Origin: Flavobacterium taihuense
GTDB lineage: Bacteria; Bacteroidota; Bacteroidia; Flavobacteriales; Flavobacteriaceae
Length of the DNA: 64,000 nt
Direction: 5' to 3'
Assembly (NCBI RefSeq): GCF_019351435.1
Contig: NZ_JAHWYN010000005.1
Location: 223,689 to 287,688, forward strand
The notes beneath the pieces were generated by a model that saw only the letters and a program-made list of their open reading frames with translations, had not been told where the DNA came from and ran no database searches. Positions 16,028 through 20,960 of this stretch are shown one piece after another. The position numbers were made by a program, and so were the translations under genes. Position 1 is the first letter of the stretch. The number at the start of each line of letters is the position of its first letter.

Positions 16028-17461
16028 ATGTTTTTCAATTCCTTGGCTTTTGCCATTTTTTTGCCCATCGTGTTTTTCTTGTATTGGTTTGTTTTTAATA
16101 AAACAAAAAGTACCCAAAATGCAATCCTTATTATTGCCAGCTACTATTTCTATTCCTGTTGGGATTGGCGTTTTTTGTTTCTGTTGGTTTTCTCAACTTT
16201 TTTAGACTATTATACAGGAATCAGAATTGAAAAAAGCATTAATGAAAAAGGAAGAAAGTTTTGGTTTTGGCTAAGTATTATTGTGAATTTAGGATTCTTG
16301 GGTATTTTTAAATACTTTAACTTTTTCTCCACTTCGTTTGCACAAATGTTAACTTCAGTAGGATTTAAAGCAAGCCCGATTTTACTGGATGTGATCTTGC
16401 CAGTAGGGATTTCTTTTTATACGTTTCATGGATTGTCCTATGTGATTGATATTTATTATAAACGCATCAAAGCCGAATACAATTTTGTTGACTACTCATT
16501 GTTTGTGAGTTATTTTCCGCTTTTGGTGGCAGGTCCTATCGAAAGGGCGACTCATTTATTGCCTCAGGTAAAAATAAAAAGAGCGTTTAATATGGCTCAA
16601 GCCAAAGAAGGAATCTGTCAAATCATTTGGGGATTGGTCAAGAAAGTGGTTATTGCTGATACTTGTGCCACTTATGCCAATGCTATTTTTGATAATTACA
16701 CTTCAATGAATTCCTTGTCTTTAATTTTGGGAGGAGTCTATTTTGCTTTTCAAATTTATGGGGATTTTTCAGGATACTCTGATATGGCTTTAGGTATGTC
16801 AAAATTGTTCGGATTGGATTTATTGCGCAATTTCAATTATCCTTATTTTTCAAGGGATATCGCCGAGTTCTGGCGTCGTTGGCACATTTCGCTTACCACT
16901 TGGTTTAGGGATTATTTGTACATCCCATTGGGAGGAAGTAAAGGGTCAAAGAGTATGCAAATCAGAAATGTTTTTATTATTTTTCTGGTGAGTGGTTTTT
17001 GGCATGGTGCCAATTGGACCTATGTAACTTGGGGATTTATTAACGCATTGTATTTCTTGCCGTTGTTGATGTTAAGCAGAAACCGAAATAATCTTGAAGC
17101 TGTTCCTTTAAAATGGAACTTTGAATCGATTGGAATAATTGGGCGCATGTTCTATACTTTTTCGTTAACCTGTGTGGCTTGGGTATTTTTTAGAGCGAAA
17201 ACCATTACTGATGCTTTCTTGTATTTGAAACGGATCGTTGTAAACAGAGAATTTACCTCTCAGTATCTTGTAAATGAGCGATACAATTATGAGTTGCTCT
17301 TAATGGTAGGTGTTTTTGTATTGGTTGAGTGGAATAATAGAACCAAAGAAGAGCCAATTTCGGGGAAATACAATACTGTTAAATTAGCTTTGGCTATAAC
17401 TGCGATTCTTGCTTTTGGAACCTATTCGGATTATAAGGAATTTATCTATTTTCAGTTTTAA
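16028..17461 (+). CDS. MBOAT-family O-acyltransferase (AlgI-like)
   Basis: A 477-residue membrane protein with about ten hydrophobic segments. MBOAT hallmarks are complete: PVGISFYTFHGLSYVID (~125), FPLLVAGPIERA, YGDFSGYSDMA, FWRRWHISLTTWFRDYLYIPLGG (~280-303) and SGFWHGANW with the likely catalytic histidine near 326. AlgI-type proteins move acetyl groups across the membrane to O-acetylate polysaccharides and normally work with an SGNH partner. The partner here is probably the gene at 20,082, separated by the repeat array. The gene ends one base before the first repeats. Confidence 0.92.
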   Translation: MFFNSLAFAIFLPIVFFLYWFVFNKTKSTQNAILIIASYYFYSCWDWRFLFLLVFSTFLDYYTGIRIEKSINEKGRKFWFWLSIIVNLGFLGIFKYFNFFSTSFAQMLTSVGFKASPILLDVILPVGISFYTFHGLSYVIDIYYKRIKAEYNFVDYSLFVSYFPLLVAGPIERATHLLPQVKIKRAFNMAQAKEGICQIIWGLVKKVVIADTCATYANAIFDNYTSMNSLSLILGGVYFAFQIYGDFSGYSDMALGMSKLFGLDLLRNFNYPYFSRDIAEFWRRWHISLTTWFRDYLYIPLGGSKGSKSMQIRNVFIIFLVSGFWHGANWTYVTWGFINALYFLPLLMLSRNRNNLEAVPLKWNFESIGIIGRMFYTFSLTCVAWVFFRAKTITDAFLYLKRIVVNREFTSQYLVNERYNYELLLMVGVFVLVEWNNRTKEEPISGKYNTVKLALAITAILAFGTYSDYKEFIYFQF

Positions 17462-17464
17462 TTA

Positions 17465-17640
17465 CCCTAGCCCTAAAGGGAGTCGGAAACCCCGGATCTA
17501 AAGGGAGTCGGAAATAAGGGAATTGATGATTTTTGTTTTACTCTGAAATACCCCAGCCCTAAAGGGAGTCGGAAAAGGAAAATGAATTGGTGTATTTTCG
17601 TTTTGTCCCAGCCCTAAAGGGAGCCGAAAATGAAGAGCTG
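17465..17640 (+). repeat. Left flank of the CCCTAAAGGG repeat array (four forward units)
   Basis: Between the MBOAT stop and the DUF559 gene are four imperfect forward units with a core (c)cctaaagggagtcgga, at about 17,469, 17,496, 17,555 and 17,610. They are separated by irregular spacers that also contain the TTTTCGTTTT tail of the main array. No gene or promoter is visible in this stretch. Confidence 0.9.
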
Positions 17641-17710
17641 ATGTGAAACACGAGATGTCATCTTTTTTTTTACCTTTTAGGGTTGGGGAAAGAAAAAAAA
17701 GGATTGTTTT
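17632..17710 (+). repeat. Reverse-type repeat unit immediately upstream of the DUF559 gene
   Basis: A block beginning gaagagctgat and running through a T-rich tract into ccttttagggttgggg and an A-rich tract. The ccttttaggg core at ~17,673 is inverted relative to the cctaaaggg cores. Near-copies of the whole block occur at ~18,591, ~19,051 and ~19,969. It places an inverted repeat core directly before the DUF559 start. Confidence 0.85.
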
Positions 17711-17735
17711 TGAATTAAACCTATTTATAAAAGTT

Positions 17736-18125
17736 ATGGATGAGAATCCGTTTAAACCTGAGGATATGTGGAAAGGTGCATCTCCACAGATTTTTTCAAA
17801 TGCAAAAAAATTAAGAGAGAATCTAACAGAGGCAGAGGAAAAGCTATGGTTAGCATTAAGAGAAAATCAGATTGGAGGATATAAGTTTAGAAGACAACAT
17901 CCTCTGAGTTTATATATTGCTGATTTTTACTGTCATGCTTTGAAGCTTGTAATTGAAATAGATGGTGATTATCATTTATCCGAAGAACAACAGTTTCTTG
18001 ATAAAAAAAGAACGAGTGATATTGAATTTCAAGGATTAAAAGTGATTCGATTTACAAATGAGGAAGTTATGTTCAAATTGCCGGAAGTTATAGATAGAAT
18101 TAGAGCGTTTATACTCTGGCCCTAA
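17736..18125 (+). CDS. DUF559 (Vsr-like) endonuclease-domain protein embedded in the repeat array
   Basis: 129 residues from ATG 17736; a longer frame back to a GTG at 17643 translates repeat sequence and is not favoured. The DUF559 domain covers ~residues 18-125: RENLTEAEEKLW, FRRQHPLSLYIADFYC, LVIEIDGDYH (~71-80) and the GLKVIRFTNEEV end (~100-111). These give the PD-(D/E)xK-type acidic and basic residues of the Vsr-like fold, and all look intact. The stop codon TAA lies inside the first ccctaaaggg core of the downstream tandem array. An inverted core lies upstream, so the gene sits between opposing repeats. Function is uncharacterised; DNA cleavage is inferred from the fold. Confidence 0.85.
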   Translation: MDENPFKPEDMWKGASPQIFSNAKKLRENLTEAEEKLWLALRENQIGGYKFRRQHPLSLYIADFYCHALKLVIEIDGDYHLSEEQQFLDKKRTSDIEFQGLKVIRFTNEEVMFKLPEVIDRIRAFILWP

Positions 18126-18600
18126 AGGGAGCCGAAAATGGGGAAATGGAGATTTTCGTTTTACCCCGACCCTAAAGGGAGCCGAAAATGAGGAAATGGG
18201 GATTTTCGTTTTACCCCGACCCTAAAGGGAGCCGAAAATGAGGAAATGGGAATTTTCGTTTTACCCCGACCCTAAAGGGAGTCGAAAATGGGGAAATGGA
18301 GATTTTCGTTTTGCCCCGACCCTAAAGGGAACCGAAAATGGGGAAATGGAGATTTTCGTTTTACCCCGACCCTAAAGGGAGTCGAAAATGAGGAAATGGG
18401 GATTTTCGTTTTACCCCGACCCTAAAGGGAACCGAAAATGGGGAAATGGGGATTTTCGTTTTACCCCGACCTTAAAGGGAGTCGAAAATGGGAAAATGGG
18501 GATTTTCGTTTTACCCCGACCCTAAAGGGAGCCGAAAATGGGGAAATGGGGATTTTCGTTTTACCCCGACCCTAAAGGGAGTCGAAAATGAGGAGCTGAT
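18117..18600 (+). repeat. Tandem array, 50-bp period, ten cores
   Basis: Cores cctaaaggga occur at 18,121, 18,171, 18,221, 18,271, 18,321, 18,371, 18,421, 18,471 (cttaaaggga), 18,521 and 18,571, an exact 50-bp spacing. Each of the nine full units carries CGAAAAT, a 12-nt loop, then ATTTTCG: a perfect 7-bp hairpin whose arms are invariant, while the loop and the gccg/gtcg/accg flank vary. There are no unique spacers, so it is not a CRISPR. The period is not a multiple of three, which argues against coding. Confidence 0.95.
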
Positions 18601-20038
18601 TTGAAACACGAGATGTTCTCTTCTTTTGCCTTTTAGGGTTGGGTCGAGGAGTAAGAGAGAGCGCAGAATTTTTGTTTTTACCCTGAAGCACCCCTGCCCT
18701 AAAGGGAGTCGGAAATGGGGTGTTTTACTCCTATCCTAAAGAGAGATTGAAATTAGGATTGATTTGAAATTGAAGATAATGTTGTCTTTCTTTTTTTCTC
18801 CCTTTAGGGTTGGGGAAGAAAAAAAAGAAAGTGTGAGGAATTTTCGTTTTACCCTGACTCTAAAGGGAGCCGAAAATGAGGAACTAATTTGGAATAGGGG
18901 AATGTTCTTCATCTTTTTTTCTCCCTTTAGGGTTGGGGAAGAAAAAAAAGAAAGTGTGAGGAATTTTCGTTTTACCCTGAGTCTAAAGGGAGTCGAAAAT
19001 GAGGAAATGGGAATTTTCGTTTTACCCCGACCCTAAAGGGAGCCGAAAATGAAGAGCTGATTTGAAACACGAGATGTTCTCTTCTTTTGCCTTTTAGGGT
19101 TGGGTCGAGGAGTAAGAGAGAGCGCAGAATTTTTGTTTTTACCCTGAAGCACCCCTGCCCTAAAGGGAGTCGGAAATGGGGTGTTTTACTCCTATTCTAA
19201 AGAGAGATTGAAATTAGGATTGATTTGAAATTGAAGATAATGTTGTCTTTCTTTTTTTCTCCCTTTAGGGTTGGGGAAGAAAAAAAAGAAAGTGTGAGGA
19301 ATTTTCGTTTTACCCTGACTCTAAAGGGAGCCGAAAATGAGGAACTAATTTGGAATAGGGGAATGTTCTTCATCTTTTTTTCTCCCTTTAGGGTTGGGGA
19401 AGAAAAAAAAGAAAGTGTGAAGAATTTTCGTTTTACCCTGACTCTAAAGGGAGCCGAAAATGGGGAAATGGGGATTTTCGTTTTACCCCGACCCTAAAGG
19501 GAGCCGAAAATGGGGTGTTTTACTCCTATTCTAAAGAGAGATTGAAATTAGGATGATTTGAAATTGAAGATAATGTTGTCTTTCTTTTTTTCTCCCTTTA
19601 GGGTTGGGGAAGAAAAAAAAGAAAGTGTGAGGAATTTTCGTTTTACCCCGACCCTAAAGGGAGCCGAAAATGAGGAACTAATTTGGAATAGGGGAATGTT
19701 CTTCATCTTTTTTTCTCCCTTTAGGGTTGGGGAAGAAAAAAAAGAAAGTGTGAAGAATTTTCGTTTTACCCTGACTCTAAAGGGAGCCGAAAATGAGGAA
19801 ATGGGAATTTTCGTTTTACCCCGACCCTAAAGGGAGCCGAAAATGAGGAACTAATTTGGAATAGGGGAATGTTCTTCATCTTTTTTTCTCCCTTTAGGGT
19901 TGGGGAAGAAAAAAAAGAAAGTGTGAAGAATTTTCGTTTTACCCCGACCCTAAAGGGAGCCGAAAATGAAGAGCTGATTTGTAACACAAGATGTTATTTT
20001 TTTTCCTTTTAGGGATGGGGAAAGGAAAAAAAAAGAAA
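18593..20038 (+). repeat. Higher-order nested repeats (461-bp duplication and partial copies)
   Basis: A block starting gagctgat at 18,593 recurs at 19,054, an exact 461-bp offset. A third, shorter copy starts at ~19,512 (333-bp offset), and a further partial copy starts near 19,846. Inside, reverse cores (ctccctttagggttgggg, at ~18,799, 18,921, 19,259, 19,382, 19,592, 19,715 and 19,889) alternate with forward cores (ctaaagggag), so each reverse-forward pair can form a 10-bp stem. Two ccttttaggg variants lie at ~18,629 and 19,090, and the array ends with one at ~20,005. No credible gene is present; repeated 90-codon open frames are by-products. Confidence 0.9.
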
Positions 20039-20081
20039 TTATTTGAATCATTAATGATTAAAAAACAGAATAAAAATTCTA

Positions 20082-20960
20082 ATGAAAAAGTTTTTACTAT
20101 TCACTTTAAAAATATTAGTCTTAACAGTAGTAATTGCTGTTGCTTTAGATTTTATTTATACCGCTATTTATCTGCAATCGAGTAATCGAGGCAAAATAGA
20201 CCATATTTATAATTCCAAAAATGAAAATTTCGATGTTGTTATTTTAGGATCTTCCAGAGCCAATAACCATTTTGTTACCCAAATGTTTGAAGACAAAGGA
20301 TTAAAAGCATTTAATTATGGAATGAGTGGAGGTCATTTGTTTGAAGCTGATTTATTATTGAAATTAATGATAGAACGGCATTATAAAATTAAGAACGTAA
20401 TTCTGGAAGCCGATTTGAATTTGTCCAATAAGCATAGAGATTATGGGATTTCGAGTAAATTTTTACCCTATTTGCACCAGTCAGAAACGGTGAAAAAACA
20501 TTTTTCAAACGAATATGATTTCTGGGAGTTGTATTATTTACCTTTTTACCGATATATAAAATTTGATGAACGTATTGGTTTCCGAGAGCTTTATAATACT
20601 ACTTTGAAAAAGCCAACGAATACTTTGGACAATAAAGGGTATTATCCTTTAATTAAGCGAAAAGGAAATATGAAGAACAATATTGTTAATCTAAAGCCTT
20701 TAGAAGACAATCAGTATTACGAAGAAATTAAGCAAATTTGCAAAGACAATAAAATTAATTTAATTGCTGTAATGACTCCTATGTGTGAGAATGTCAAAGG
20801 AATGGACTATTTTGATAAAGTTAAGAAAATGTATCCCGAAATTCACAATTATGAAAATGTAGTAGTGGAGGATAAATATTTTTCGTCCTGCGGACATATG
20901 AATGATACAGGTGCGAGACTATTTACGACCCGAATTATAAAAGATTTTTTTAATAAATAA
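20082..20960 (+). CDS. SGNH-hydrolase-like membrane-anchored protein, probable partner of the MBOAT acyltransferase
   Basis: 292 residues with an N-terminal membrane anchor (~5-28) and an external domain. VVILGSSRANNHF (~52-64) is the block-I nucleophile region of DltD/AlgJ-like SGNH proteins. YGMSGGHLFE supplies the next block (Gly), and the C-terminal SSCGHMNDTGARLF holds the expected histidine. Such proteins take the acetyl group exported by an MBOAT and place it on the polysaccharide, or act in the reverse esterase direction. The nearest MBOAT gene is 2.6 kb upstream across the repeats. The next gene starts four bases downstream. Confidence 0.8.
   Translation: MKKFLLFTLKILVLTVVIAVALDFIYTAIYLQSSNRGKIDHIYNSKNENFDVVILGSSRANNHFVTQMFEDKGLKAFNYGMSGGHLFEADLLLKLMIERHYKIKNVILEADLNLSNKHRDYGISSKFLPYLHQSETVKKHFSNEYDFWELYYLPFYRYIKFDERIGFRELYNTTLKKPTNTLDNKGYYPLIKRKGNMKNNIVNLKPLEDNQYYEEIKQICKDNKINLIAVMTPMCENVKGMDYFDKVKKMYPEIHNYENVVVEDKYFSSCGHMNDTGARLFTTRIIKDFFNK

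Follow-up and report, generated by a model that had tools for sequence, protein, structure and literature searches.

We propose, at a probability of roughly 0.6, that a repeat-rich unit in the 64-kb stretch of the Flavobacterium taihuense genome analyzed here (64,000 nucleotides, hereafter the window) is a mobile element, in which a DUF559 nuclease gene lies among palindromic cognate ends and which would be spread by copying that the nuclease promotes. The unit is likely mobile because relatives of it, a nuclease gene with its repeats, recur at many positions in other bacteria, some of them within core enzymes that still read as open frames. The window features on which the argument draws are as follows.

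16028 to 17461, + strand: MBOAT acyltransferase-type gene, the left neighbor (open reading frame; name from the earlier note)
17462 to 20081, unstranded: inserted stretch with cores, DUF559 gene and tandem arrays (junction comparison with relatives, G093 included)
17471 to 20014, unstranded: entire core array, 24 forward and 11 reverse cores (core search)
17673 to 17682, - strand: reverse core directly ahead of the DUF559 gene (one mismatch)
17736 to 18125, + strand: DUF559 gene, 129 aa, predicted Vsr-like nuclease (PF04480, conserved residues, structure model)
18120 to 18129, + strand: forward core holding the DUF559 TAA stop (core search, sequence)
18120 to 18594, + strand: tandem array of 9.5 units at period 50, each with one forward core (tandem-repeat analysis)
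18502 to 19512, unstranded: 461-bp tandem duplication, 2.2 copies, forward and reverse cores (tandem-repeat analysis)
19151 to 19969, unstranded: 333-bp and 173-bp tandem duplications, overlapping, with inverted core pairs (tandem-repeat analysis)
20082 to 20960, + strand: SGNH-type gene, the right neighbor (open reading frame; name from the earlier note)

The core CCCTAAAGGG, at up to one mismatch, occurs 35 times in the window, every copy falling within the array (24 on the + strand, 11 on the - strand), as compared to a mean of 2.11 and a maximum of 8 in 100 dinucleotide-preserving shuffles. These counts agree with an earlier note on this DNA, which had described at least eleven reverse and more than twenty forward cores around an intact DUF559 gene preceded by a reverse core and with the stop codon falling in a forward one, an arrangement that is likewise present (17673-17682 and 18120-18129). 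The DUF559 frame spans 17643-18125, being open from a GTG at 17643 with the ATG at 17736 as the likely start, and its product matches PF04480 at an E-value of 1.7e-33 with 115.2 bits against a curated cut-off of 20.6, which places it in the Pfam DUF559 family. The inverted flanks of this copy were recognized by eye only, its score in the automatic test described below being 10 against a threshold of 12, and the core at its 3' end has, by eye, an eroded tail. As to the neighbors, the MBOAT-type product matched a DltB model weakly and under that model's cut-off, and an NCBIfam scan of the SGNH-type protein gave no match.

Much of the array was produced by tandem duplication, with periods of 50, 461, 333 and 173 bp. 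The short core pairs of the window largely arose in this way and so do not represent many separate insertions, and with that correction the earlier suggestion of an autonomous unit surrounded by its non-autonomous derivatives is supported: the repeat-nuclease-repeat arrangement recurs elsewhere, and one internally deleted derivative that keeps remnants of both DUF559 ends was found (L055). Spacers compared among 11 short end pairs mostly shared no homology, with one short motif common to four loci, so that short pairs are not simple copies of one unit. A core-plus-tail pattern has 28 matches in the window's own genome, 26 of them inside the array; the two solo cores outside it (L006 1501-1518 and L007 1501-1518) were observed at the broken end of an RND-type efflux frame and within the frame of a membrane-type protein, close to its C-terminus. 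The same genome has five PF04480 matches, and the window copy alone is near-full-length in a short stand-alone gene. A tandem array resembling that of the window was also noted in another genome (L387, G138:C1:95000-99000), with about 14 LPYN-type cores at a 153-bp period. One of the three 90-aa open reading frames of the array was scanned, without a Pfam match, and these frames are treated as translated repeats. Seven Rfam matches in the array were all far below their gathering scores, and a structured RNA was rejected as an artefact; sub-threshold Rfam microRNA matches over the core pairs at 18841-19916 are likewise read as hairpin artefacts. When folded as single-stranded DNA, two window core pairs (z -2.78 and -2.63) and two ends from L066 and L091 outperformed their shuffles, as compared to two single window cores that did no better than theirs (z -0.40 and -1.45).

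The 2.6 kb in the window is read as an insertion because the two genes that flank it overlap in most relatives. A search of 150 congeneric genomes with the SGNH protein found a homolog in 93 at E <= 1e-60, and the junction was read in the 29 relatives for which the locus was returned. In 22 of these the MBOAT stop overlaps the SGNH start (TA/ATG), which is the empty site that the earlier note had proposed looking for where the two genes adjoin, and the genes also overlap in G093, whose SGNH protein is the most similar to that of the window (88%). The other seven junctions have gaps of 24-1258 bp, and the gap in G025 contains cores. DUF559 together with cores lies between the same two neighbors in four more loci (G025, G010, F. 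palustre and Flavobacterium sp. 7A). Separately, we note that the junction is filled with 223-1258 bp of other material in L342, L349, L351 and L361, at least three of which carry repeats of a different family (GTCAAATCGAG... type), and the overlapping gene pair looks like a hotspot for repeats.

If the palindromes belong to the nuclease, inverted ends would be expected around DUF559 copies generally. A PF04480 search of 150 genomes of the genus gave matches in 80, with a full-length DUF559 in 61; the listed matches with E below 1e-20 comprise 101 distinct domains, 98 of which had enough flank on both sides to be tested. The score was that of the local inverted repeat between two 350-bp flanks, with a threshold of 12 (the 99th percentile of 1960 shuffles, whose maximum was 15). 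It was reached by 62 of the 98 copies and 46 exceeded 15, as compared to 14 and none of 231 control frames at the same loci; the remaining 36 copies, that of the window among them, have no clear ends. A second set comprised the best 80 loci of one listing and 30 loci from a phylum search of 296 genomes, of which 126 matched DUF559 at E <= 1e-15. Here 66 of 101 testable copies reached 12 and 46 reached 15 (control frames: 10 and 1 of 314), the two sets overlapping in that at least L211, L265, L279 and L281 repeat genus copies by eye. High scores were also obtained in Phormidium (L273), Candidatus Viridilinea (L267) and a Candidatus Uhrbacteria MAG (L252). Contig L279, filed under a Candidatus Nitrotoga MAG, is likely contamination, since its metH is of the Flavobacterium type and contains a DUF559 copy that looks identical to L061. 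The check proposed earlier, whether cores flank DUF559 genes in inverted orientation, thus came out positively, and a general lack of such repeats beside DUF559 homologs, which would have broken the proposed link, is not what either set shows. Two clades of stand-alone copies, of 15 and 20 members, each occupy 11 loci as judged by flanking genes, a count that contig ends may inflate. The mobile or copy-spreading role that had been surmised is supported by this recurrence, by the empty site and by the co-variation described below, and that the nuclease causes the spread we infer.

The palindromes are likely the cognate ends of the DUF559 nuclease. End similarity tracks nuclease similarity across the 62 elements with clear ends (Mantel r 0.69), and with one intergenic element taken per locus the correlation is 0.86 (n=19); none of 2000 permutations reached r in either case. 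A metH-type end pattern occurs in 51 of the 150 genomes and an LPYN-type pattern in 28, the controls (reversed, for the metH type) giving 0 each. At least five metH-type ends were found in 17 of 61 genomes with a full-length DUF559 versus 2 of 89 without (p 4e-6, kinship ignored), and in 12 of 19 genomes with a metH-type element versus 7 of 131 without (kinship ignored). An element's own ends add to its genome's count; among genomes lacking a metH-type element the difference persists, the mean number of ends being 2.64 with DUF559 and 0.48 without. Repeats abundant in genomes without any DUF559 gene, the other finding that would have told against the link, are accordingly rare, with two exceptions lacking any DUF559 match, G004 with 5 metH-type ends and G055 with 21. 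We also observed that many of the ends in G055 (L368-L377) form inverted pairs with unlike spacers.

G055, which has four Y1_Tnp matches, raises an alternative in which another enzyme, for instance a RAYT-type Y1 transposase, moves the palindromes and DUF559 rides along. There is a known precedent in the REPs moved by RAYTs (excerpts of PMC2817692), and across the 150 genomes end number tends weakly to be higher with Y1_Tnp (PF01797; p 0.05 to 0.17), at least five metH-type ends being present in 14 of 79 genomes with Y1_Tnp versus 5 of 71 without (p 0.08, kinship ignored). We nevertheless consider this alternative unlikely: the ends co-vary with DUF559, end number is far more tied to DUF559 than to Y1_Tnp at the same cut of five ends, the DUF559 link is present in genomes with and without Y1_Tnp alike, and the window's own genome lacks PF01797 at E <= 1e-8. 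A RAYT as the main mover was rejected, PF01797 not being clearly linked to end number over the 150 genomes, as were CGTC-type REPs as the ends, that motif lying within 400 bp of just 2 of 101 DUF559 copies.

The comparison that the earlier note drew with REP elements and their RAYT transposases is nonetheless apt in its logic. Excerpts of PMC2817692 give flanking inverted palindromes, co-variation of palindrome and enzyme, and palindrome abundance that goes with the gene as the marks of that system, and DUF559 resembles it in each: the gene lies between inverted palindromes in the 62 genus copies detected automatically, the ends co-vary with the enzyme, and abundance of the cognate palindromes goes with DUF559 and not clearly with Y1_Tnp. 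Arrays of alternating units are a further likeness. The systems differ in that the DUF559 enzyme is a PD-(D/E)XK-like nuclease and not a Y1 HUH transposase, in that the GTAG tag is absent beside the window's cores on inspection of the sequence, in that the DUF559 enzyme is itself often embedded in frame in host proteins, and in that metH-type ends are well below the quoted >100 REPs per genome.

The window DUF559 protein is predicted to be a Vsr-like nuclease. Active-site residues are conserved: across the 101 copies, those within host proteins among them, each of nine positions (E, W, Q, D, F, E, D, H, D) has the same residue in 99 to 101, and the exceptions (L112, L109 and L122) are all embedded; the nine are invariant in 90 aligned sequences and all are present in the window protein. 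Median dN/dS in the embedded groups is 0.12-0.26. An AlphaFold model of the window protein (pLDDT 85.6) has as its closest structure NGO0050 of Neisseria gonorrhoeae (PDB 3HRL; profile E 6.2e-32, Foldseek E 5.4e-8, TM 0.85 on the target), which belongs to the same DUF559 family and is titled putative endonuclease-like, followed by the homing endonuclease I-Bth0305I (3R3P; profile E 1.4e-6, Foldseek E 2.1e-4), and the match to the Vsr fold is weak (Foldseek E 0.045). A role in anti-phage defence was rejected, the PADLOC matches being weak and partial (at best mREase_II at E 1e-7 over 64 residues, and HEase at E 0.0028).

The life of this family inside proteins is invisible from the window alone. 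Counting as embedded those domains in an open frame with at least 100 host residues before and at least 60 after, 53 of 101 copies in the genus set and 27 of 109 in the second set lie in frame within a host protein; hosts in the second set were named by eye, apart from those scanned with Pfam. Nine examples were named by Pfam, namely MetH, LeuRS, RecG, a UvrD-type helicase, a type ISP/Eco57I enzyme, a class I tRNA synthetase (which by motif we take to be IleRS), HsdR, HsdM and a DegT aminotransferase. The insert lies between two B12-binding domains in MetH and between the two helicase lobes in RecG. Read as protein, the metH ends give PPAPEGGA...APPSGAGGA. Comparison with empty alleles by eye suggests that some 8-12 loop residues are replaced and not split, and the second MetH loop has short inserts in four of the loci read. 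No intein domain was found in the nine embedded hosts by the Pfam scan, and the frames read through the insert.

These fixed sites might also be explained if each had been filled once long ago, with vertical descent and many losses thereafter, the nuclease being kept for a host function such as repair. In a tree of the 101 domains, which has few columns and many weak forks and in which the site label of L070 was later corrected by hand, the elements cluster by insertion site with 10 label changes (the minimum being 9). Moreover, element and host show similar divergence in most same-site pairs, as old insertions with many losses would be expected to produce, the median pS for element and host being 0.70 and 0.78 at metH site 1, 0.64 and 0.66 at metH site 2, 0.66 and 0.71 at leuS site 1, 0.70 and 0.72 in recG, and 0.64 and 0.69 in addA; the low dN/dS fits as well. 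MetH site 1 itself may reflect one old insertion followed by many losses. Several observations nonetheless make such long residence improbable as the whole account. Among 65 host sequences at MetH site 1 (67 tried, one genome present twice) 14 are filled and 51 empty, a distribution that takes 10 changes to place on the host tree, supported branches forcing no fewer than 9 of them; this is near-random scatter, shuffled labels giving a mean of 12.9 changes and 9 of 500 shuffles being as low as observed. The patchy occupation is compatible with homing, that is, the cutting and conversion of empty alleles, and is only compatible with it.

The host-tree neighbors G137 and G028 tell further against simple descent. 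MetH site 1 is filled in G137 and empty in G028; at MetH site 2 a near-identical element sits in diverged host genes, with fourfold differences at 1 of 34 sites in the element versus 48 of 132 in the host gene (p 3.7e-5, uncorrected, for a contrast found among some 250 pairs inspected), a signal that this element may have moved between the two lineages. One leuS site of these close hosts contains unlike elements, with 12 of 16 fourfold differences versus 44 of 143 in the host. The stand-alone clades at 11 loci each, and mosaic segments in icmF, also speak against old residence. In the icmF of G101, G028 and G111, a segment that differs from the native one lies between palindromes: in 60-bp bins the flanks match each genome's compared relative at 0.80-0.97 and the segment at 0.38-0.73, and the three palindrome-bounded segments resemble one another more (0.63-0.86). 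Of 30 icmF loci fetched, 26 were readable by motif and one of those (G028) had palindromes. These loci (L199, L391 and L384, icmF of the methylmalonyl-CoA mutase fusion type) look as if whole segments had been swapped between species, and the G111 frame (L384) is broken past the right palindrome.

Members of the mobile-element family that we favor occupy intergenic positions or, with the frame kept, loops of core proteins, and an embedded nuclease adds a domain to the protein that the host frame encodes. They likely spread by copying that the nuclease promotes. It would cut either a target, at the site or close by, or the hairpin ends of its own element, and recombination by the host, using a copy that contains the element as template for repair, would then put the segment from palindrome to palindrome in place of the resident sequence. 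Units with internal deletions, paired ends and single ends would be derivatives that no longer move autonomously. Breaking and copying is favored over classical transposition because target duplication is not consistent in the pairs read, loops are replaced, lineages are bound to sites and the nuclease is predicted to be hydrolytic. That DUF559 is instead a cut-and-paste transposase whose substrates are terminal inverted repeats, as in an insertion sequence and its MITEs, seems very unlikely for all its long terminal inverted repeats (some perfect over at least 35 bp) and its internally deleted derivative, given that the pairs read by eye have no consistent target-site duplication and the window junction an imperfect 6-of-8 repeat, that host residues are replaced and not split, and that Vsr-type nucleases hydrolyze DNA and are not known to perform strand transfer.

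A bolder reading, to which we give somewhat less than even odds, is that DUF559 units are self-spreading elements living inside proteins, in which a Vsr-like nuclease domain with palindromic ends homes into the loops of core enzymes, persists unspliced in the mature protein and sheds short palindromic inserts; they would then be the enzyme-bearing form of protein-invading palindromes. The Rickettsia palindromic elements are likewise palindromic inserts in frame within conserved proteins, and differ in that the DUF559 family brings its own nuclease, as compared to no enzyme named for them in excerpts of PMC3733652 and PMC3767692. The EDxHD homing endonuclease I-Bth0305I (homing endonuclease facts from excerpts of PMC3943268) has a homologous catalytic domain, and DUF559 is similarly patchy at fixed sites in conserved genes. 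The DUF559 protein differs from it in being small and single-domain with palindromic ends, no intron or intein was seen in the DUF559 hosts scanned, and any homing by DUF559 is putative. Among the open-license PMC articles covered by our searches, titles and the opening lines of abstracts contained no link between DUF559 and palindromes or in-frame insertion.

In-frame palindromes in bacterial proteins are already known from Rickettsia and from REPs, those of Rickettsia having no named cognate enzyme in the excerpts cited, and the DUF559 family links palindromes of this kind with a nuclease that accompanies them. The nuclease domain persists in MetH, LeuRS and RecG, in restriction subunits and in a class I tRNA synthetase that we take to be IleRS. 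Our findings offer a testable function for a widespread domain that is still of unknown function in Pfam, and could point to a route by which selfish DNA reshapes essential proteins without splicing.
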